A DNA stretch of 19,670 nucleotides from Deltaproteobacteria bacterium RBG_13_61_14 (GCA_001797815.1 MGQK01000130.1:76080-95749), one strand, 5' to 3'. Counted from the stretch's first letter, positions 1 to 10,026 are shown. A program made the numbers and translations. The notes: generated by a model from the letters alone, not told the origin.

Positions 1-1542
1 ATCGTAAAACAACTTCTGAAAGATTTCGGACACGGCGCCGGCATGGTCCTTGAGCTCGGCCAAAAACTTCTCCACGGCATCCGGGCCCCGGTGTCCGAAA
101 TGCCGGGCCAGGATTTCCAGGCTCCGGGAGGAAGCGGGCAACTCATGCACCTGGCGTTCGTCCTTGAGTTGCAACCGGTGCTCGACCGTGCGCAGGTATT
201 TCCAGGACGCGAGCAGCACCTCGTGCTCCACCGAGTTGATCAGGTTGTCGGCCAAAAGGCGGTCGAGCGCCTCGGGCGTGGCCAGCGCCCGGATCTGGGG
301 CCGCTTGCCGCCGTAGGTCAGGAGCAGGGCCTGGACAAAGAACTCGACCTCCCGGATGCCGCCGCGGCCGAGCTTGACGTCGTAGCCCGGGCCGATCCGG
401 CTTTTCAAGGAGCCGGCCTGGCGGTCAATCTGAAGCTTCATCTCCTTGAGGTCTTCGAGCGAGCCGAAGTCGTGGTATTTGCGGAAGAGGAACGGGTCGA
501 GCTCGCTCAGGAGCTTTTGCCCGAGCTCCCGGTCGCCCGCGACCGGCCGCGCTTTGGCCAGGGCGGCGCGCTCCCAGGGCTGGCCCCAGCTCTCGTAGTA
601 GCCGAGCGCGGCCTCCAGCGAGTTGACGATCGGGCCGTTGCCGCCTTCAGGCCGGAGGCGCAAGTCCACCCGAAAGACGAAGCCGTCGGCCGTGGTCTGG
701 CTGAGGCTGCGGGTCAAGTTCTCGGCCAGGCGGGTGTAAAAGGCGTGGAGGTCGAGCGCCGGGCTTAAGCCGCCTTGGGTCCCGCCGCGGTCGGTCGCGG
801 AGAGATAGATGAGGTCAATGTCCGAGGAGAAGTTGAGCTCGCGGCCGGCCAGCTTGCCCATGCCCAGGACCGCAAAACCCGGCTGCTGCTCCCCCGAGTC
901 GTCCTCCTTCACCGGCTCCCCGTATTCGCGGATCAAGAGCCGGGTCTCGACCTCAAGCGCGCCCTCGATGCAAGCCTCGGCCAGGTCGGAGAGCTCGCGG
1001 GCCACGACCGGAAGATCGGCCAGGCCGGCCAGGTCGCGGGTGGAGATGCGCAGGAACTCGTCATACTTGAAGCGGCGCAGCTCGCGCAGCAAGCTTTCCT
1101 CGGACTCCGCCCCGGCGAGCCGGTCCCGGAACTCTCGCCGCATGACCGGTCCCGGCTTGGCTTGATCGAGAAAGGGCGATTCGAGGACCGCGAGGCGGAA
1201 GCGGTCCGGCTCGCGGGCGAGCAGTTGCGCCAGGGCCGGCGAGCCGGAGAGCAGCGGCAGCAGGAGCGGCAGGCCGCGGGGCGCAAAGAGCCCGGCGAGG
1301 GCGATCTTTTGGCGATGGGTCTCGCTGACCAGGTTTTCGAGATGCAGCAGCGCGGCGTCCGGGTCGGGCAGGCCGGCGTTGAAGATCGAGGCCAGCGCCT
1401 GGAAGAAGGACTCGACCAAAGCGGGTTCAGAGCCAGGCGCCTCTTCCAGCATCCGGCGAAGGGAACGCAAGGCGGCTTCGATCGCCCCGGGGTTTTCAAA
1501 GCCTTCCGGATCAAGCGCCGGAATTTCGCGGTTAGGGGTCAT
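1..1542 (-). CDS. glnE: GlnE, glutamine synthetase adenylyltransferase (N-terminal part, cut by window edge)
   Basis: GlnE adenylylates glutamine synthetase and removes the AMP again, adjusting nitrogen assimilation in the cytoplasm. The frame is open for 514 codons from the ATG at 1542 to the left edge, so about half of a normal protein of roughly 950 residues is present. This is the N-terminal, deadenylylating nucleotidyltransferase domain. The family signature GMGKLAGRELNFSSDIDLIY lies at residues 228-247, with the metal-binding aspartates at 241 and 243. Further on are FLFRKYHDFGSLEDLKEMK and GPGYDVKLGRGGIREVEF, both strongly GlnE-like. No alternative start codon lies between the ATG and the upstream in-frame stop. 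There is no clear Shine-Dalgarno, but a TATACT hexamer sits 9 nt before the ATG, so the mRNA may be leaderless. It lies 68 bp downstream of etfA on the same strand and may also be reached by etfBA readthrough. Identification is secure; whether the C-terminal half is intact cannot be seen. Confidence 0.95.
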   Translation of the reverse strand, partial: MTPNREIPALDPEGFENPGAIEAALRSLRRMLEEAPGSEPALVESFFQALASIFNAGLPDPDAALLHLENLVSETHRQKIALAGLFAPRGLPLLLPLLSGSPALAQLLAREPDRFRLAVLESPFLDQAKPGPVMRREFRDRLAGAESEESLLRELRRFKYDEFLRISTRDLAGLADLPVVARELSDLAEACIEGALEVETRLLIREYGEPVKEDDSGEQQPGFAVLGMGKLAGRELNFSSDIDLIYLSATDRGGTQGGLSPALDLHAFYTRLAENLTRSLSQTTADGFVFRVDLRLRPEGGNGPIVNSLEAALGYYESWGQPWERAALAKARPVAGDRELGQKLLSELDPFLFRKYHDFGSLEDLKEMKLQIDRQAGSLKSRIGPGYDVKLGRGGIREVEFFVQALLLTYGGKRPQIRALATPEALDRLLADNLINSVEHEVLLASWKYLRTVEHRLQLKDERQVHELPASSRSLEILARHFGHRGPDAVEKFLAELKDHAGAVSEIFQKLFYD

Positions 1543-1591: not shown

Positions 1592-1620
1592 GGGGTCAGG
1601 TCCTGACAATTCACAATTTC
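1592..1620 (+). repeat. GGGGTCAGG-type intergenic element, copy 1
   Basis: It begins GGGGTCAGGTCCTGAC and continues as an AT-rich tail, CAATTCACAATTTC. GTCAGG and CCTGAC form a 6-bp inverted repeat around one T. The first 28 bases match the copy at 17588 at 22 positions, and GGGGTCAGG recurs at 14969. The tail runs into the etfA stop codon, so the element abuts and slightly overlaps the 3' end of that gene. Likely a dispersed small palindromic element; it could also fold as a weak transcript end between etfA and glnE. Confidence 0.6.
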
Positions 1621-2597
1621 TTTTCTTTTTTATCCCGGAGTTTGGCGATCAAGACCGGCAGGAACCGGCGCAGGTCCTGGACAATGCCCAGGTGGGCCGC
1701 GCTGAAGATGGCAGCCGCGGGGTCGGTGTTGACGGCCACGATCAGGTCGGCCCGGCTCATGCCCATGGTGTGCTGGATGGCGCCGGAGATGCCGCAGGCC
1801 AGGTAGAGTTTCGGGGCCACGGTCTGGCCGGTCATGCCCACCTGGTGTTCGAGCGGGAGCCAGCCCGCGTCCACCACCGGCCGCGAGGCCCCGACCGCGC
1901 CGCGGTCAAAGAGGGAGGCCAGCTCCCGGATCAGGCCCAAATGCTCCGGCCCGCCCATGCCCCGGCCCGCGGCCACGATCACCTCGGCCCGGCTCAAGTC
2001 CAGGGAACGAGGGGGCGCTTGCTTCAGCCCAAGCGCGCGGGTGCCGCCGGCGCCCGCCTCCACTGATTTCACCTCGACCGCTCCCGCGGCCTCCGGCTCG
2101 GTCGGCTTGACGGCGCCCGGCATCATTGTCACCACCGCCACGGTATCAAGGATCGGCGCGACCTCGGTCGAGATCTTGCCGCCGCAGATGGCGCGATGAA
2201 ACCTGATCGGGACGCCGGCTTCAAAACCGGCGACACCGGTGGAGCACGAGCCGCTCACCGCCACCGCCAGCCGGGGCGCGAAGTCCCAGCCGGCAGCGGT
2301 GTGCGCGATCAGGATGAAGGCCGGTTGGCGCTCCGAAACAAGTCGGGCGAGCGCGCGCAGATAAGCCTCCGCGTTGTAAGCTGAAAAATTTTCATTCTCC
2401 AGCGCAAGCACCGGCAGGCCCGAGCTTTGCGCGAATTCCTCGGCCACGGACCGGGCCGGAGAGGCAAGCACAACCCCCATCACGCTTCCTCCGGCAATCT
2501 GCGCCAGTTGCCGACCGAAGGCCGCGAGCTCCAGCGACACCGGCAGGAGCTTGCCGGCGCGATGCTCGACCACCACCAGGATCTCTCTGCTTACCAT
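1611..2597 (-). CDS. etfA: Electron transfer flavoprotein subunit alpha
   Basis: This is the FAD-carrying alpha subunit of the heterodimeric electron transfer flavoprotein, which accepts electrons from acyl-CoA dehydrogenases and passes them to the quinone pool. The 328-residue length is normal for the family. The C-terminal FAD domain is clear: VDAGWLPLEHQVGMTGQ (residues 242-258), then LYLACGISGAIQHTMGM (264-280) and a VNTDPAAAIF stretch (289-298). The start at 2597 was chosen because the ATG lies inside the end of etfB (ATGGTAA, 7-nt overlap) and gives the usual N-terminus, MVSREILVVVEHR. The frame is open further upstream, but that part is antisense to the family pattern and overlaps etfB. 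The lysine-rich tail (DKKEKKL) ends where a GGGGTCAGG element begins. Translation is probably coupled to etfB. Confidence 0.95.
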   Translation of the reverse strand: MVSREILVVVEHRAGKLLPVSLELAAFGRQLAQIAGGSVMGVVLASPARSVAEEFAQSSGLPVLALENENFSAYNAEAYLRALARLVSERQPAFILIAHTAAGWDFAPRLAVAVSGSCSTGVAGFEAGVPIRFHRAICGGKISTEVAPILDTVAVVTMMPGAVKPTEPEAAGAVEVKSVEAGAGGTRALGLKQAPPRSLDLSRAEVIVAAGRGMGGPEHLGLIRELASLFDRGAVGASRPVVDAGWLPLEHQVGMTGQTVAPKLYLACGISGAIQHTMGMSRADLIVAVNTDPAAAIFSAAHLGIVQDLRRFLPVLIAKLRDKKEKKL

Positions 2598-3367
2598 ACC
2601 GGCACCCGGGCGCGCACTTTCTCGAGCAACTGCTCCGCGATCCGGTCCAGGTCGCCCTCCAAAAATTCGCAGATCGCGCTGCGCTCGGGGAGGCACGCCC
2701 GGAGCGTGGTCTCGGAGTTTGGGATCTCTCCCAGCGAAGCGGTCGGGATTGAAGGGATGGTGAGTTGCTTGACCCGGAGCACATTGGTGAGGCTCGCGTA
2801 GCGGGGCGTGTTGATCCCGGACTGGACGGTGAGGAGCGCGGGGAGAGGGAGTAGAACCCGCTCCCGCATGCCGCCTTCCAGCTCGCGCTCGCAGGTGATG
2901 GATTTCCGATCTTCGGAAATTTTTTCAGCTGCCACCGTCGTGGCGCAGGGTAGTCCTAAAAGCTGCGCGAGCATGGGCCCGGTCTGGCCGCGCTGGAGGT
3001 CTTCGGACAGCACCCCGCACAGAACCAGATCGAATTTTTTGTCCCGGGACCAGGCTGCGATCAGGGAGGCCACGGCCAGCGCGCTGGTCGCCCGGCCGTT
3101 GGAATCATCAATCAAAACGCCGTCGGCAGCGCCCAGGCTCATGGCCTTGCGGAGCGCGGCTTCGGCGCGGGGCGGGCCGACGGTGACCGCGGTGATCTCC
3201 ACCTCCCGGAACCGCTCCTTGATCCGCACCGCTTCCTCCATGGCGAAGAGATCGTATTCGTTCACCCCGAACTTGAGCCCGCTTTCTTCATAGCCGGTGC
3301 CAGCCGCATTCACCCGGAAGCTGGATTGCCGGTCCGGCACCGATTTCACGCAGACCAGGATCTTCAT
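2591..3367 (-). CDS. etfB: Electron transfer flavoprotein subunit beta
   Basis: This is the AMP-binding beta subunit, partner of the following etfA product. It has 258 residues, normal for EtfB, with the typical start MKILVCVKSVPD and the early NEYDLFAMEEAVRIKE block (residues 36-51). The ADGVLIDD and LVLCGVLSEDLQRGQTGPMLAQ segments match the domain that binds AMP and contacts partner dehydrogenases. It is the first gene of an etfBA pair and is divergent from an operon that encodes an acyl-CoA dehydrogenase, the expected electron donor. A TACAAT box lies 11 nt before the ATG, so the leader is very short and there is no strong Shine-Dalgarno. A palindrome next to the -35 position suggests control shared with the divergent operon. 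Confidence 0.95.
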   Translation of the reverse strand: MKILVCVKSVPDRQSSFRVNAAGTGYEESGLKFGVNEYDLFAMEEAVRIKERFREVEITAVTVGPPRAEAALRKAMSLGAADGVLIDDSNGRATSALAVASLIAAWSRDKKFDLVLCGVLSEDLQRGQTGPMLAQLLGLPCATTVAAEKISEDRKSITCERELEGGMRERVLLPLPALLTVQSGINTPRYASLTNVLRVKQLTIPSIPTASLGEIPNSETTLRACLPERSAICEFLEGDLDRIAEQLLEKVRARVPVW

Positions 3368-3378
3368 CTTCAGCCTGC

Positions 3379-3407
3379 ATTGTACCAGAATCCCGCCCAG
3401 AAAAAAA
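3379..3407 (-). promoter_or_regulatory. Candidate etfBA promoter
   Basis: On the minus strand the -10 is TACAAT (3384-3379), 11 nt before the etfB ATG. The -35 position at 17-bp spacing is TTTTTT, which is poor, so the promoter may be weak or need activation. The palindrome at 3407-3420 directly abuts this -35 position. Confidence 0.5.
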
Positions 3408-3420
3408 GCGAACGTTCGCT
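3407..3420. promoter_or_regulatory. Perfect 14-bp palindrome, candidate TetR operator
   Basis: AGCGAACGTTCGCT is identical to its own reverse complement. It lies between the divergent etfBA and phosphatase/dehydrogenase/kinase promoters, touching the etf -35 position and ending 9 bp before the opposite -35. A TetR-family regulator is encoded in the operon it precedes, and TetR proteins bind such palindromes. Assigning it to that regulator is inference. Confidence 0.55.
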
Positions 3421-3429
3421 CGATTTTTC

Positions 3430-3458
3430 TTGACAGGCATCTGCCGAGCGGCTACAAT
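3430..3458 (+). promoter_or_regulatory. Near-consensus sigma70 promoter for the phosphatase-dehydrogenase-kinase operon
   Basis: TTGACA (3430-3435), a 17-bp spacer, then TACAAT (3453-3458): eleven of twelve consensus bases at optimal spacing. The expected start of transcription is about 3465, next to the ATG at 3466, giving a leaderless mRNA. This is the strongest promoter match in the window. Confidence 0.8.
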
Positions 3459-3465
3459 CCCGGCC

Positions 3466-4191
3466 ATGAGCACCCTCTACCTGGTGCGGCACGGGCAGGC
3501 CTCCTTCGGCCAGAGCAATTACGATCAGCTCTCGGAGCTGGGCGATCAGCAATCCAAGCTTCTCGGCGAGTATTGGCTCAAGTGGAAGGTGTCGCTGGAC
3601 GCGGTTTACACCGGCACCCTGGTGCGCCAGATCCGGAGCGCCGAGGCCGTGGCCGCGGTCTATCAGGCCGCGGGCCAGCCCTTTCCCTCTCCCGTGGCCT
3701 GGCCCGAGTTCAACGAGTATGACACTCAGTCGCTCCTCACCAACTCCTTCCCCAAAGTCGCGGCCGAGCACCCGGAGATCGTCAAGCTGATCCGGGAGCT
3801 TAACCCCGGCAGCAGCGCGGACATCGTCGAGAACAAGAAAATTTTTCAGCGGGTGTTCAGCGCGGTCATGGACCGCTGGGTGGACGGCAAGATCAAAATC
3901 GCCGGCATGGAGTCGTGGCAGAATTTCGCCGGCCGGGTGAACCGCGGCCTGAGCGAGTTGATGAGCGAGCAAGGCCCGAGCAAGACGGTGGCGCTGTTCA
4001 CCTCGGGCGGGCCGATCTCGGTGGCCATGCAGCGGGCGCTCGGCGCCTCGGACAAGACGGCGCTGGAGCTGGGCTGGGTGATCGCCAACGGCTCGGTCTC
4101 CGAGTTCCGCTGGAGCGGGGACAAGTTCTCGCTGGCGAGTTTCAACGGGACGGCGCATCTGGATCGGGGAGAGTTGATCAGTTATCGCTAA
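3466..4191 (+). CDS. Histidine phosphatase superfamily protein (phosphoglycerate-mutase-like)
   Basis: The 241-residue protein begins MSTLYLVRHGQASFGQSNYD. RHG at residues 8-10 holds the histidine that becomes phosphorylated in this superfamily. The YTGTLVRQIRSAE and PEFNEYD segments supply the usual arginine and the acidic residue. The second catalytic histidine, normally in a (S/T)HGG motif, is replaced: the sequence reads LFTSGGPISVAM. The start at 3466 fits the family N-terminus; an in-frame TTG at 3430 falls inside the -35 box and is rejected. No Shine-Dalgarno is visible, and the -10 box ends 7 nt before the ATG, so translation is probably leaderless. It is the first gene of an operon with an ACAD10/11-type dehydrogenase, a TetR protein and an APH-type kinase, so its substrate may be a phosphorylated acyl-CoA or acid. 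That role is inferred, and reduced or altered activity is possible. Confidence 0.85.
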   Translation: MSTLYLVRHGQASFGQSNYDQLSELGDQQSKLLGEYWLKWKVSLDAVYTGTLVRQIRSAEAVAAVYQAAGQPFPSPVAWPEFNEYDTQSLLTNSFPKVAAEHPEIVKLIRELNPGSSADIVENKKIFQRVFSAVMDRWVDGKIKIAGMESWQNFAGRVNRGLSELMSEQGPSKTVALFTSGGPISVAMQRALGASDKTALELGWVIANGSVSEFRWSGDKFSLASFNGTAHLDRGELISYR

Positions 4192-4192
4192 C

Positions 4193-4237
4193 GTTAGTTG
4201 TTGCGCGGGTGAGGGTGGGGGCACCCGCACCACTAAC
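4193..4237 (+). repeat. REP-like stem-loop, unit 1 of a tandem pair
   Basis: Outer arms GTTAGT (4193-4198) and ACTAAC (4232-4237) enclose inner arms GCGGGTG (4205-4211) and CACCCGC (4222-4228). It starts one base after the phosphatase stop codon. Its left side matches unit 2 at 18 of 21 positions from TTAG onward. There is no T-run after the stem, so it is not a typical intrinsic terminator. Confidence 0.65.
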
Positions 4238-4247
4238 AGCCGCGCCA

Positions 4248-4311
4248 TTAGCGGTTGCGCAGGTGAGGCTTTCGGCCGTGAGCTCAGCCGAACGGGCACC
4301 TGCGCCCCTAA
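4248..4311 (+). repeat. REP-like stem-loop, unit 2 of a tandem pair
   Basis: Outer TTAG (4248-4251) and CTAA (4308-4311); perfect 9-bp arms GCGCAGGTG (4257-4265) and CACCTGCGC (4297-4305); inner arms TTCGGC (4271-4276) and GCCGAA (4287-4292). It has the same plan as unit 1 with a longer central insert, and ends just before the ribosome binding site of the next gene. It may modulate or process the operon mRNA. Confidence 0.7.
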
Positions 4312-4329
4312 AGTCCAAGGAGGAGCAAA

Positions 4330-5535
4330 ATGGAATTTGGGATTGACGAGAAGACACAGACGATTTTGGGAATGATCCGGGAGTTCATGGCCAAGGAGGT
4401 GTATCCGCTGGAGCCTTATTTTTTGGGCAAGAGCTTCCGGGAGATGAAGCCCAAGCTGGAAGAGGCGCGGAACAAGGTGCGGCAGATGGAATTGTGGGCG
4501 CCGCAGCTGCCCAAGGAGCTGGGCGGGGTGGGCATCGGCTTTATGGGCTACGCCATGGCCTGCGAGGAGATCGGCCGCTCGCCGCTCGGGGCCTACATCT
4601 TCGGGAGCCAGGCGCCGGACGCGGGCAACATCGAGATCCTGGCCAAATACGCAACCGAGGAGCAGCGGGAGAAGTGGATGCGGCCCCTGATCCGGGGCCA
4701 GATCCGGTCCTGCTTCTCCATGACCGAGCCCGAGTTCGCCGGAAGTAACCCCACGGTCATGGCCACGAGCGCGGTCAAGGACAAGGGCGACTACGTGATC
4801 AACGGCCACAAGTGGTTCACCAGCGCCGCCGACGGGGCCCGGTTCGCCATTGTAATGGCGAATACCAATCCTGAAAATCCCTCCCCTTACCAGCGGGCGA
4901 GCATGATCATCGTGCCCACCGACGCGCCCGGCTTCAAGCTGCTCCGCAACATCTCGGTGATGGGCCACGCCGGGGACGACTACGGCACCCACGGCGAGAT
5001 CATGTATCAAAACTGCCGGGTGCCGCAATCGAACCTGCTCGGGCCCGAGGGCCAGGGCTTCGTCATCGCCCAGGAGCGGCTGGGCCCGGGCCGCATCCAT
5101 CATTGCATGCGCTACATCGGGATCGCTCAGCGCTGCTTCGAGATGATGTGCGAATACGCGGCCAAGCGGGAGGTGACCGAGGGCAAGACCTTGGCCACCA
5201 AGCAGATTATCCAGGGCTGGATCGCGGAGTGCCGGGCCGAGATCCACGCCTCCCGGCTGATGGTGCTGCACGCGGCCTGGAAGATTGACACCCAGGGCGC
5301 TTACGCGGCCCGGGAGGAGATCTCGCTGATCAAGTTTTACGTGGCCAACACCATGCTCAAGGTGATTGACAAGGCCATCCAGGTGCACGGCGGGCTGGGC
5401 GTGTCCGACGACACCATCCTCTCCTTCTTCTACCGGATGGAGCGCGGCGCCCGCATTTACGACGGCGCCGACGAGGTGCACAAGGTGGTGGTGGCCAAGC
5501 GCATCCTCCGCCAGTACCAGGCCCAGGTGGCATGA
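4330..5535 (+). CDS. Acyl-CoA dehydrogenase, ACAD10/ACAD11-like
   Basis: A 401-residue FAD enzyme with the full acyl-CoA dehydrogenase fold. FAD/substrate-loop motifs CFSMTEPEFAGSNP (128-141) and GHKWFTSAADGARF (159-172) are present, with QVHGGLGVSDD (351-361) near the C-terminus. LGPGRIHHCMR (251-261) and YDGADEVHK (377-385) are the features I know from ACAD10/ACAD11; the position of the usual catalytic Glu of YEG is Asp here. ACAD11-type enzymes work with an APH-type kinase to turn 4-hydroxyacyl-CoA, via 4-phosphoacyl-CoA, into normal beta-oxidation intermediates. The APH kinase is encoded two genes downstream, and EtfAB, the expected electron acceptor, is divergent upstream. AAGGAGGA at 4317-4324 is a strong ribosome binding site 5 nt before the ATG. 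The stop overlaps the TetR start (ATGA). The substrate remains inferred. Confidence 0.92.
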   Translation: MEFGIDEKTQTILGMIREFMAKEVYPLEPYFLGKSFREMKPKLEEARNKVRQMELWAPQLPKELGGVGIGFMGYAMACEEIGRSPLGAYIFGSQAPDAGNIEILAKYATEEQREKWMRPLIRGQIRSCFSMTEPEFAGSNPTVMATSAVKDKGDYVINGHKWFTSAADGARFAIVMANTNPENPSPYQRASMIIVPTDAPGFKLLRNISVMGHAGDDYGTHGEIMYQNCRVPQSNLLGPEGQGFVIAQERLGPGRIHHCMRYIGIAQRCFEMMCEYAAKREVTEGKTLATKQIIQGWIAECRAEIHASRLMVLHAAWKIDTQGAYAAREEISLIKFYVANTMLKVIDKAIQVHGGLGVSDDTILSFFYRMERGARIYDGADEVHKVVVAKRILRQYQAQVA

Positions 5536-6254
5536 GCGAATCCCCGGCCACAGCGAGCTACGCCGAGTTCTCGCGGCGGCTGAAGCCGCGGATGGCCGAA
5601 CTTCTGGCCGCTCTCTTCCAGGAAAACCGCGGCTCGATCCGGGTGAAGAAGGAAAAAGTCGCGGTCAAGAACCTGGAGAAAATTTTCGCGGCGGCGCTCG
5701 CGCTCGGCCAGACCAAGGGCTTCCACGCCATGAGCCTGCGCGAGTTGTCCCGCGCCTCCGGCCTGTCCATGGGCGCGCTCTATTCCTACTTCTCTTCCAA
5801 GGAAGAGCTGCGCGGCCATATCCTCCGCTTCGGGGTCCGGCTCGCGAGCGAGGCGGTGGAGGCCGAGGCCAAGCGTTACTCGCGGCCGGCCGAGCAACTG
5901 GCCGGCGCGATCCGGGCGCACCTGTTCCTGTCCGAAGCCTTGCGGCCCTGGTTCTACTTCGCCTACATGGAGGCGCGGAACCTTCCGGCAAAAGAGCGGG
6001 AGCAGGCCATGGCCAACGAGCGCCGGACCGAGGCCGTCTTTGTTCGGATCCTGCGCGAGGGGAAAAAGCGCGGGGCCTTCCGACTGCCGGAAGTGGAGCT
6101 GACCGCGGCGGCGATCAAGGCTCTGCTCCAGGACTGGTATCTCAAGCGCTGGAAATACGGGCAGGCCGGGCTCGGAGTGGAAGAGTACGCGGCCTTTGTG
6201 GTAAATTTTGTGCTGGGCGCCATCCGCGCCCGCCCGAAGGAGTGGGGAAAATGA
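5532..6254 (+). CDS. TetR/AcrR-family transcriptional regulator
   Basis: A 240-residue predicted repressor with the N-terminal helix-turn-helix of the TetR family at about residues 46-92. It contains FAAALALGQTKGFHAMSLRE, then SRASGLSMGALYSYFSSKEEL, in which the recognition helix ends in the familiar YxYFxSKEEL. The remainder would be the ligand-binding and dimerisation domain. About 45 residues precede the DNA-binding domain, longer than typical, with basic residues around RVKKEKVAVKNLEK. The ATG overlaps the dehydrogenase stop as ATGA, and its own stop overlaps the kinase start in the same way, so translation is probably coupled. TetR proteins beside acyl-CoA dehydrogenases often sense acyl-CoAs. 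The perfect palindrome at 3407-3420 is its most likely target, giving control of both this operon and etfBA; this is inference. Confidence 0.9.
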   Translation: MSESPATASYAEFSRRLKPRMAELLAALFQENRGSIRVKKEKVAVKNLEKIFAAALALGQTKGFHAMSLRELSRASGLSMGALYSYFSSKEELRGHILRFGVRLASEAVEAEAKRYSRPAEQLAGAIRAHLFLSEALRPWFYFAYMEARNLPAKEREQAMANERRTEAVFVRILREGKKRGAFRLPEVELTAAAIKALLQDWYLKRWKYGQAGLGVEEYAAFVVNFVLGAIRARPKEWGK

Positions 6255-7318
6255 ACCCGTTGATTGACCAGACCGCGGCGGTGCGGCCGGGTGAAGAGCT
6301 GCCCCTGGACAAGGTGAGGGACTTCCTGGTCGAGGCGATCCCGGGAATTCAGGGCGAGATCGCGGTCGAGCAGTTTCCCGCGGGGCATTCCAACCTGACT
6401 TATCTGCTCAAGGTGGGCGGCCGCGAGCTGGTGCTGCGCCGGCCGCCGTTCGGGAGCAAGGTCAAGACCGCGCACGACATGGGCCGGGAGTTCCGCATTT
6501 TCCGCGCGCTGCATCCGGTGTATTCGCGGGTGCCCAAGCCGCTGGCGTTTTGCGAGGACGAGTCAATAATCGGGGCCAGGTTTTACGTGATGGAGCCGAT
6601 CCGGGGCCTGATCCTGCGCAAGGAGCTCCCGGCCGGGCTGGACTTTTCGCCGGCGGTGGTGGACCGGCTCTGCGAGTCATTCATCCAGAACCTGGCCGAC
6701 CTGCACGCGGTGGACTACCGGGCGGTGGGGCTGGACCAGATGGGCAAGCCGGAGGGCTATCTCCAGCGCCAGGTGGACGGCTGGGCCGGCCGCTACACCG
6801 GCTCGCAGACCGATGACATCCCCGAGATCAGCCGGGTGATCCCGTGGCTGAAAGCGAACCTGCCCGCCTCGCCGGCCGCCACGCTGGTGCATAACGACTA
6901 CAAATACGACAACCTGATCCTGGACCCGGACGACATCACCAAAATCATCGGCGTGCTCGACTGGGAGATGTCCACCATCGGCGATCCGCTCGCCGACCTG
7001 GGCGGGGCGCTCGGCTATTGGGTCCAGGCCGACGACCCGGACGAGCTGAAAGCCCAGGCCTTCGGGCCGACTTTCGCGCCCGGCTCCTGGACCCGGAGGC
7101 ATTTGGCCGAGCGCTACGCCGAGCTCACCGGCCGGGACATCTCCAACATCCACTACTACACCTGCTTCGCGGCCTTCCGGATCGCGGTGATCATCCAGCA
7201 GATTTACTACCGCTTCAACCAGGGCCTGACCCGGGACGAGCGCTTCGGGCCGCTGATCAACATGGTCAAGCTCCTGGCGCGGGTGGCGGATGAGTTAATC
7301 AAGCGGGGTGAAATTTAA
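6251..7318 (+). CDS. APH-family phosphotransferase, ACAD10/11 kinase-domain type
   Basis: A 355-residue kinase-fold protein of the aminoglycoside phosphotransferase superfamily. AGHSNLTYLL (residues 44-53) is the nucleotide loop and ELVLRRPP (59-66) follows it. The catalytic loop is HNDYKYDN (214-221), with catalytic Asp216 and Asn221; GVLDWEMSTIGDPLADLG (234-251) carries the metal-binding Asp237. This DWE-STIGDPLADL pattern is typical of the kinase half of animal ACAD11 and of bacterial kinases next to acyl-CoA dehydrogenases, which phosphorylate hydroxyacyl-CoAs, not antibiotics. It should therefore not be read as a resistance gene. The ATG overlaps the TetR stop (ATGA), confirming the start and the operon. 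With the dehydrogenase at 4330-5535 it forms a split equivalent of the fused eukaryotic enzyme. Family call is firm; substrate is inferred from context. Confidence 0.9.
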   Translation: MNPLIDQTAAVRPGEELPLDKVRDFLVEAIPGIQGEIAVEQFPAGHSNLTYLLKVGGRELVLRRPPFGSKVKTAHDMGREFRIFRALHPVYSRVPKPLAFCEDESIIGARFYVMEPIRGLILRKELPAGLDFSPAVVDRLCESFIQNLADLHAVDYRAVGLDQMGKPEGYLQRQVDGWAGRYTGSQTDDIPEISRVIPWLKANLPASPAATLVHNDYKYDNLILDPDDITKIIGVLDWEMSTIGDPLADLGGALGYWVQADDPDELKAQAFGPTFAPGSWTRRHLAERYAELTGRDISNIHYYTCFAAFRIAVIIQQIYYRFNQGLTRDERFGPLINMVKLLARVADELIKRGEI

Positions 7319-9114: not shown

Positions 9115-9627
9115 TCATGTCTTTTTTCGGGTTGCGCCTCCCGCCAAGAAGGCCAGGGCGGAGCGGGCGTTTTCTTCCTGGGCCAGCACCTGGCTCGCCA
9201 CCGCGTCCAGGGTCGCAAGCAAATCTTTCATCTCCTTGAGGCGCTTGACCGCCTGGCCGGAAGCTCCCTGGGGGAGCGTGCCCAACAGCTCCCGGAGCGC
9301 GGCCAGCACCGGGTCGAGCTCGCGGCGCTTGCGTTCGCGGGCGATGGCGAAGAACATCTTCCACACCTCCGGCTCTGTGAGATAGTAGTCGCGCCGGTCG
9401 CCGCGCACCTTCACCCGCCGGACCACGCCCCAGTTCCGGAGCTCCTTGAGGCACATGCTGGCGTTCCCCCGGCTGATCTGAAGCCGGTGCGCGATCGCGT
9501 CCAGGCTCAGGGGATCCTCGGAGACGATGAGCAGCGCATGCACTCGGGCCATGGAGGTGTTCAGCCCCCAGAGCGAGCCCATTTGGCCCCAGGCGTCCAC
9601 GAACCGATCCTTTTGAGTTTGTTTCAT
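9115..9627 (-). CDS. GbsR/MarR-family transcriptional regulator
   Basis: A 170-residue winged-helix regulator. Residues 16-82 match the GbsR-type MarR family: MGSLWGLNTSMARVHALLI, then the helix-turn-helix around LDAIAHRLQISRGNASMCLK, and the wing RRVKVRGDRRDYY. The C-terminal part is helical, as in dimeric members. GbsR relatives regulate osmolyte transport, but similar proteins control many small reductase or transporter genes, so the ligand is unknown. The ATG at 9627 gives the normal N-terminus; no Shine-Dalgarno is evident in the AT-rich leader. A promoter lies at 9683-9655 with a 16-bp palindrome across its -10 end, pointing to autoregulation, and the same site recurs before the SDR gene downstream. 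Confidence 0.85.
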   Translation of the reverse strand: MKQTQKDRFVDAWGQMGSLWGLNTSMARVHALLIVSEDPLSLDAIAHRLQISRGNASMCLKELRNWGVVRRVKVRGDRRDYYLTEPEVWKMFFAIARERKRRELDPVLAALRELLGTLPQGASGQAVKRLKEMKDLLATLDAVASQVLAQEENARSALAFLAGGATRKKT

Positions 9628-9640
9628 TATATTTTTAATA

Positions 9641-9656
9641 TTCAGTATATTTTGAA
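9641..9656. promoter_or_regulatory. Operator-like 16-bp imperfect palindrome, copy 2
   Basis: TTCAGTATATTTTGAA, matching the copy at 9079-9094 at 15 of 16 positions, with ATTCAG.ATATTTTGAAC-like flanks also shared in part. It overlaps the end of the regulator's -10 box and the expected transcription start, the classic position for autorepression. Confidence 0.65.
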
Positions 9657-9683
9657 CTTACCATACACTCGCTTGCCTGTCAA
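9655..9683 (-). promoter_or_regulatory. Promoter of the GbsR-type regulator gene
   Basis: On the minus strand TTGACA (9683-9678), a 17-bp spacer, then TAAGTT (9660-9655). The -35 is perfect, the -10 moderate. The operator-like palindrome overlaps the -10 and start region. Confidence 0.6.
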
Positions 9684-10026
9684 GTCTTTTTTTCATGGAA
9701 GCCAGCAAAACTCCCCCGCTTGGACCGGAACTCAAAAGGCAGCAGACGGCTTCAGCCGAGCGGCCGGCTTTTGGTCATTGGGCTTTCATGCTTCTCCCCA
9801 ACAACTCGGCGGGATCTTGCGCGGCATAATACCGGTAACGTTCGACCTCCCGTTCGGTCAGCGGCCGCGGGGTCTTGACACGGTTAAATAGGTATGATAT
9901 TTAAACTCACAATTTAATATAAGTGCTTGAAATAAAATTATAAAATTGAAGAGATTAAATAAATCTAGATTCATATTTCGGCTGGAAACTATACTGAGAC
10001 CATAGGATTTTCGCACCCCCGAAAGC
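9684..10026. other. Gene-poor interval: GC-rich possible relic, then AT-rich promoter region
   Basis: From about 9700 to 9890 the base composition is gene-like, but no supported gene was found. On the minus strand an open stretch ending at the stop 9777-9775 would encode TPRPLTEREVERYRYYAAQD and a few further residues, with no usable start codon; it may be the tail of a decayed gene. A plus-strand frame (9695-9829) has no ribosome binding site. From about 9895 to 9990 the DNA is strikingly AT-rich and likely holds the promoter of the lipoprotein gene; TATACT at 9990-9995 is a candidate -10 with a poor -35. Confidence 0.4.

Follow-up and report, generated by a model that had tools for sequence, protein, structure and literature searches.

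The mammalian enzymes ACAD10 and ACAD11 fuse an APH-type kinase to an acyl-CoA dehydrogenase (ACAD) with an HCMR motif, and convert 4-phosphoacyl-CoA to 2-enoyl-CoA without an electron acceptor (PMC12440821, PMC11342911). In the modelled active site of mouse ACAD11, R626, H634 and R637 hold the 4-phosphate and D753 is the base, and changing these residues abolishes activity (PMC12440821). ACAD10 has in addition a phosphatase-type (HAD) domain that is degenerate: one Asp of its DxD motif is missing, its phosphatase activity is negligible, and it restrains the kinase (PMC11342911). In the Lva pathway of Pseudomonas putida the kinase (LvaA) and the ACAD (LvaC) are split, and are presumed to use the same 4-phosphoacyl-CoA route (PMC12440821, PMC11342911, PMC6692424). 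The levulinate cluster of P. citronellolis LA18T includes homologues of lvaA and lvaC; Habe et al. noted a histidine phosphatase family gene near the lvaA homologue, did not find lvaB, and guessed at a phosphatase function for the noted gene (PMC6692424).

We have analysed a stretch of 19,670 nucleotides (the window), part of contig C130 in the 4.74-Mb, 132-contig genome of Deltaproteobacteria bacterium RBG_13_61_14, a genome with 34 ACAD matches. Gene calls and Pfam matches, the latter far over the cut-offs, define a locus at 1611–7318 in which etfB and etfA lie on the minus strand and, divergent from them on the plus strand, genes for a histidine-phosphatase-like protein, an ACAD, a TetR-family regulator and an APH-fold kinase. 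The features are as follows.

1611–2594, minus strand: etfA, electron-transfer flavoprotein alpha subunit; GTG start at 2594; Pfam ETF and ETF_alpha.
2591–3367, minus strand: etfB, electron-transfer flavoprotein beta subunit; Pfam ETF.
3379–3384, minus strand: putative extended -10 box TGGTACAAT of the probable etfBA promoter, as read from the sequence.
3410–3421, plus strand: TetR-type operator GAACGTTCGCTC, with the shared motif GARCGNTCGYTC; overlaps a 14-bp perfect palindrome AGCGAACGTTCGCT (3407–3420).
3430–3458, plus strand: sigma-70-type promoter, TTGACA-17-TACAAT; 11/12 consensus positions.
3466–4191, plus strand: histidine-phosphatase-like protein, branch 1; ATG at 3466; Pfam His_Phos_1, 6.6e-21; RHG kept, TSGG at the second-His site.
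4192–4329, plus strand: 138-bp spacer of dispersed hairpin repeats, with copies genome-wide.
4330–5535, plus strand: ACAD10/11-type acyl-CoA dehydrogenase, predicted to be phosphoeliminating; Pfam and solved relatives; R250, R255, H258, C259, M260, R261, D378, H221.
5532–6254, plus strand: TetR-family regulator; Pfam TetR_N and TetR_C_24.
6251–7318, plus strand: APH-fold kinase, corresponding as a separate protein to the kinase domain of ACAD10/11; Pfam and solved relatives; D216, N221, D237, R79, R173.

All of the genes and motifs named in the original prediction are present, with LGPGRIHHCMR and YDGADEVHK in the ACAD and HNDYKYDN and DWEMSTIGDPLADL in the kinase. The interval it quoted, 2591–7318, takes in the start of etfA but not the end, and its description of one overlapping operon goes a little too far: the ACAD-TetR and TetR-APH overlaps are there (four bases each), but 138 bp separate the phosphatase-like gene from the ACAD gene. 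This spacer belongs to a REP-like family of hairpin repeats with at least 49 partial copies in the genome at 83–97% identity; the possibility that it is a module-specific attenuator was rejected, as it is a dispersed repeat with a fold z of only -1.4. No acyl-CoA ligase, SDR or hydratase is encoded within the operon itself. Directly after etfA on the same strand is the gene for GlnE (glutamate-ammonia ligase adenylyltransferase; window 1–1542), which is cut by the window edge.

This layout differs from those of the described bacterial clusters. By gene map and Pfam, equivalents of LvaB, LvaD (SDR), LvaE (CoA ligase) and LvaR (sigma-54 regulator) were not found in or next to 1611–7318, whereas the window has TetR, EtfBA and phosphatase-like genes that set it apart from the Lva operon. 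The P. citronellolis LA18T cluster resembles the window in its histidine phosphatase family protein, its lvaA and lvaC homologues and its lack of lvaB, but it encodes an SDR, a CoA ligase and LvaR, and its described part contains neither TetR nor EtfBA (PMC6692424). Plasmid clusters of the order ACAD-SDR-APH-histidine phosphatase-SDR (Azospirillum, Pseudoalteromonas, Ideonella and Rhodobacteraceae, with variants in Streptomyces and Deinococcus) share the three core proteins, including a phosphatase-like protein with TSGG or TSAG; unlike the window, they have SDRs and LysR or other regulators, and no etfBA.

Among solved structures the ACAD is closest to mouse ACAD11 (8v3u, 302 bits) and human ACAD11 (298 bits, 40.6% identity), followed by a Mycobacterium abscessus protein. 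Its R250, H258, R261 and D378 are the counterparts of mouse R626, H634, R637 and D753. In our alignment this phosphate-binding and catalytic set is invariant in 96 family rows, although invariance of the GPGRIHHC stretch among scanned loci is partly built in because the scan for related loci selected on that motif; the window and plasmid rows were picked independently of it. The full set was not found in the nine other ACADs aligned from the same genome. The best solved relatives of the kinase are 9o56 (370 bits), 3dxp (183 bits) and the ACAD11 kinase domain (174 bits), and its D216, N221, R79 and R173 are the counterparts of ACAD11 D220, N225, R86 and R176. The kinase thus has the catalytic Asp and Asn and the CoA-contact Arg residues, together with a second metal-site Asp (D237). 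Kinase and ACAD are separate genes with no ACAD10/11-like fusion and keep all of the published phosphate-binding and catalytic residues, in agreement with the prediction of a split ACAD10/11-like pair.

The trees were built with mammalian ACAD11 rows and no LvaA or LvaC rows. The ACAD lies in the HCMR-bearing superclade, apart from the nine other ACADs of its own genome (SH-aLRT 100), and within a clade of 35 rows (SH-aLRT 99) that is sister to the mammalian ACAD11 clade rather than inside it. The kinase groups with most of the kinases that have a phosphatase-like neighbour (35 rows, SH-aLRT 97), and this group belongs to a different and more distant clade than the ACAD11 kinase. An ACAD10/11 affinity had been expected of both proteins; it holds for the ACAD at the level of the superclade and not of the mammalian sub-clade, and the kinase does not group with its ACAD11 counterpart. 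Because the ACAD11 residues are kept, we consider ACAD10/11-type elimination chemistry to be well supported as a prediction from sequence, but because the ACAD is in a sister clade and the kinase is farther removed we do not assign the pair to the mammalian sub-clade. The window proteins match ACAD10 and ACAD11 in their phosphate-binding, catalytic and CoA-contact residues, and differ in being split, in the 40% identity and sister-clade position of the ACAD, in the clade of the kinase, and in the addition of TetR and EtfBA.

In the reaction that we infer, the APH-type kinase would phosphorylate the 4-hydroxyl of a 4-hydroxyacyl-CoA. Asp378 of the ACAD would take the C2 proton, with a hydride passing to FAD while Arg250, His258 and Arg261 hold the 4-phosphate; expulsion of the phosphate and return of the hydride would give 2-enoyl-CoA, with no external acceptor. 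We favour with moderate confidence the overall explanation that the locus is a TetR-controlled two-operon module that brings 4-hydroxyacyl-CoAs into beta-oxidation. Points against it are the clade of the kinase, the sister genome G002, whose locus has neither TetR nor etfBA, and the lack of acyl-CoA ligase, SDR and hydratase genes in the operon. That the ACAD is in a clade of its own at 40% identity to ACAD11, that the kinase is in a clade other than that of the ACAD11 kinase, and that the neighbouring genes name no substrate would also suit some other hydroxylated acyl-CoA (5-hydroxy, branched, or ring-derived gamma-hydroxy) in place of a plain 4-hydroxy fatty acid. Such a substrate seems unlikely to us, as the residues placed for the 4-phosphate in mouse ACAD11 are unchanged here.

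The order of elements between the divergent operons is the palindrome and then the TTGACA-17-TACAAT promoter, which lies 7 bases ahead of the ATG of the phosphatase-like gene. The TetR protein has a DNA-binding domain, a C-terminal region of the TetR_C_24 family, and this palindromic operator at its own operon; TetR orthologues with 45–49% identity occupy the same place at six other loci. The motif GARCG-NT-CGYTC, with A and T runs at its flanks and TTGAC after it, is present at all six TetR-bearing loci in which the promoter region is available. Five of these matches are exact and one has a mismatch, and at most 3 of 300 shuffles do equally well, a test that overstates the case a little because the motif was derived from the same loci. 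The operator is absent from all six loci examined that are without that TetR. Agreement of the operator across phyla, and with the presence of TetR, is strong, and the module has its own TetR, as originally predicted. The window operator is the only intergenic copy seen in its genome; a wider TetR regulon was rejected, since the other genome matches appear to be coding and a control pattern is equally frequent. The simplest reading of these sequences is that TetR would act as a local repressor of both operons, sitting between the two promoters. It may be released by an acyl-CoA of the pathway. Both promoters are near start codons (window 3379–3466), and the mRNAs of etfB and the phosphatase-like gene may be nearly leaderless.

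When one genome was scanned for each species, related ACADs turned up at 80 loci. The comparison is drawn from other phyla, with three searchable genomes for the window's own class or phylum, and the taxon names of loci are the record titles of MAGs. The complete arrangement of etfA-etfB facing phosphatase-ACAD-TetR-APH is found at loci L036 and L076 (both labelled Deltaproteobacteria) and L058 (Spirochaetia). Locus L034 (Desulfobacterales), which ends within TetR, and locus L032 (a Firmicutes MAG), which starts within the phosphatase-like gene, match the module up to their contig limits. In L033 the module is without the phosphatase-like gene, and in L038 (Planctomycetaceae) TetR has moved to the other strand. 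Recurrence of the order in other phyla places it beyond chance. The sister genome G002 has phosphatase-like, ACAD and APH genes in the window order; neither a TetR gene between ACAD and APH nor an etfBA pair beside them was found at that locus, so TetR and EtfBA are not essential. At this G002 locus (L017, 3093–5302) the phosphatase-like gene is set apart from the ACAD by a gene for a DNA methyltransferase and one more gene, which is endonuclease-like going by its position alone; the two may represent a restriction-modification insertion.

Co-occurrence was compared between ten module-clade loci and 56 other loci of the ACAD10/11 type that have 4 kb to either side. The phosphatase-like gene is present at 9/10 versus 2/56 (p 1.4e-8), EtfB at 6/10 versus 1/56 (p 1.5e-5), and TetR at 7/10 versus 6/56 (p 2e-4), Fisher values that treat related loci as independent and a module group that includes contigs ending inside the module. 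The conserved gene order and co-occurrence that had been anticipated are thus seen, complete at three loci and as enrichment of all three genes in the module clade. That the three components are all obligatory was rejected, however: many ACAD10/11-type loci of Bacteroidota, Chloroflexota and Bacillota are without them, and G002 is without TetR and EtfBA. Genes of beta-oxidation follow the module at some loci, with a 3-hydroxyacyl-CoA dehydrogenase at L058, an enoyl-CoA hydratase at L033, and SDRs at L058, L076 and L038.

The histidine-phosphatase-like protein (branch 1, Pfam PF00300) keeps R8 and H9 of the RHG motif, the second Arg (R54) and E84, numbered with Met1. Its Ser180 aligns with the second catalytic His of 9mmh and CobC. 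Among 39 relatives covering this position, Ser is found in all 33 strong family members and His in all six weak, ordinary relatives; with the second catalytic His missing, the label phosphatase is doubtful. A fold model (pLDDT 90.7) has PGAM5, PhoE and phosphoserine phosphatase as its best PDB matches, with Z about 22 to PGAM5 and PhoE; ACAD10 differs in that its phosphatase domain is HAD and not of the histidine-phosphatase fold. The gene had been singled out as a third component outside the described scheme, and it is indeed present, but it is not peculiar to the window: the family is wide, and one member has been noted beside an lvaA homologue (PMC6692424). Of 40 Pseudomonas genomes, 39 have strong TSGG-family members, and the family mostly adjoins kinases of this type, with a kinase within about 5 kb in 9 of 13 complete loci picked by the phosphatase-like gene alone. 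Plasmid clusters with the phosphatase-like gene near a kinase and an ACAD were seen in Azospirillum, Pseudoalteromonas, Ideonella, a Rhodobacteraceae strain, Caballeronia, Streptomyces and Deinococcus. Almost all of the Pseudomonas genomes (G017, G024–G062) carry a single ACAD of the ACAD11 type and a single phosphatase-like gene of the TSGG family, at separate loci. The L076 protein (9132–9962) has degenerated one step further: besides having the Ser, it reads RHA where RHG is expected.

With its fold and most of the phosphate pocket kept and the second His lost, the protein may serve the kinase as a non-catalytic partner, and would most likely bind either that kinase or the phosphorylated intermediate. 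By analogy with LvaB and with ACAD10, whose HAD domain is degenerate, it could restrain or assist the kinase. We take a regulatory role as our first choice, at about an even chance, because of the Ser at the second-His position, the kinase neighbourhood, the missing lvaB in P. citronellolis and the parallel with the ACAD10 HAD domain. An active phosphatase, in which Ser replaces the second His and phosphate is removed from 4-phosphoacyl-CoA or from the free 4-phospho-acid for editing or recycling, is possible but somewhat doubtful. The retained RHG nucleophile, R54 and Glu84 agree with it, as does the match of the modelled fold to active phosphatases, and such a role was proposed for the P. 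citronellolis homologue (PMC6692424); it is opposed by the uniform Ser/His division between family members and ordinary relatives, and constant activity alongside the kinase would make a futile cycle. Extending the regulatory role, we suggest tentatively, at rather below even confidence, that degenerate TSGG histidine phosphatases are dedicated regulatory partners of bacterial ACAD11-type kinases, convergent with the ACAD10 HAD domain and LvaB, and that in this variant of the module a single TetR operator governs the kinase, the eliminating ACAD, the pseudophosphatase and EtfBA.

Pfam identifies the domains of both EtfA and EtfB, among them the one with which EtfA binds FAD. EtfB is closer to the EtfB proteins of five other module loci (157–202 bits) than to its own-genome paralogues (137 and 101 bits); EtfA is one of three in the genome, and its affinity to module EtfAs is less clear. 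The idea that the module has its own EtfAB is upheld insofar as etfBA is conserved, but EtfBA is dispensable for the core step and is not part of it, because the ACAD10/11 reaction runs acceptor-free (PMC12440821, PMC11342911). EtfBA, divergent and sharing the operator, probably serves later steps, and would carry electrons for ordinary dehydrogenations downstream. At L038 the genes after etfBA encode an Fe-S membrane oxidoreductase and another ACAD, forming with it a general acyl-CoA oxidation set. It is improbable, in our estimate, that the ACAD of this clade passes electrons to EtfBA, for example by releasing 2,4-dienoyl-CoA, or works as an ordinary dehydrogenase. The divergence of etfBA from the ACAD operon across a shared operator region at several module loci would suit such a transfer, and EtfB tracks the module; yet every phosphate-elimination residue is kept, the mammalian enzymes manage without an acceptor (PMC12440821, PMC11342911), the G002 ACAD has no adjacent etfBA, and at L038 etfBA belongs to the general set.

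To the split pathways of the ACAD10/11 kind that are already known, the locus adds a conserved regulator, EtfBA and a degenerate phosphatase. With this gene set the bacterium can probably bring 4-hydroxy fatty acids into normal fat burning as ACAD10 and ACAD11 do. That etfBA is conserved poses a direct question, the reaction being reported as acceptor-free. In ACAD10 the degenerate HAD domain restrains the kinase of 4-hydroxy acid breakdown; degenerate phosphatases, widespread in bacteria next to kinases of this type, would provide simple two-protein systems for studying kinase restraint.
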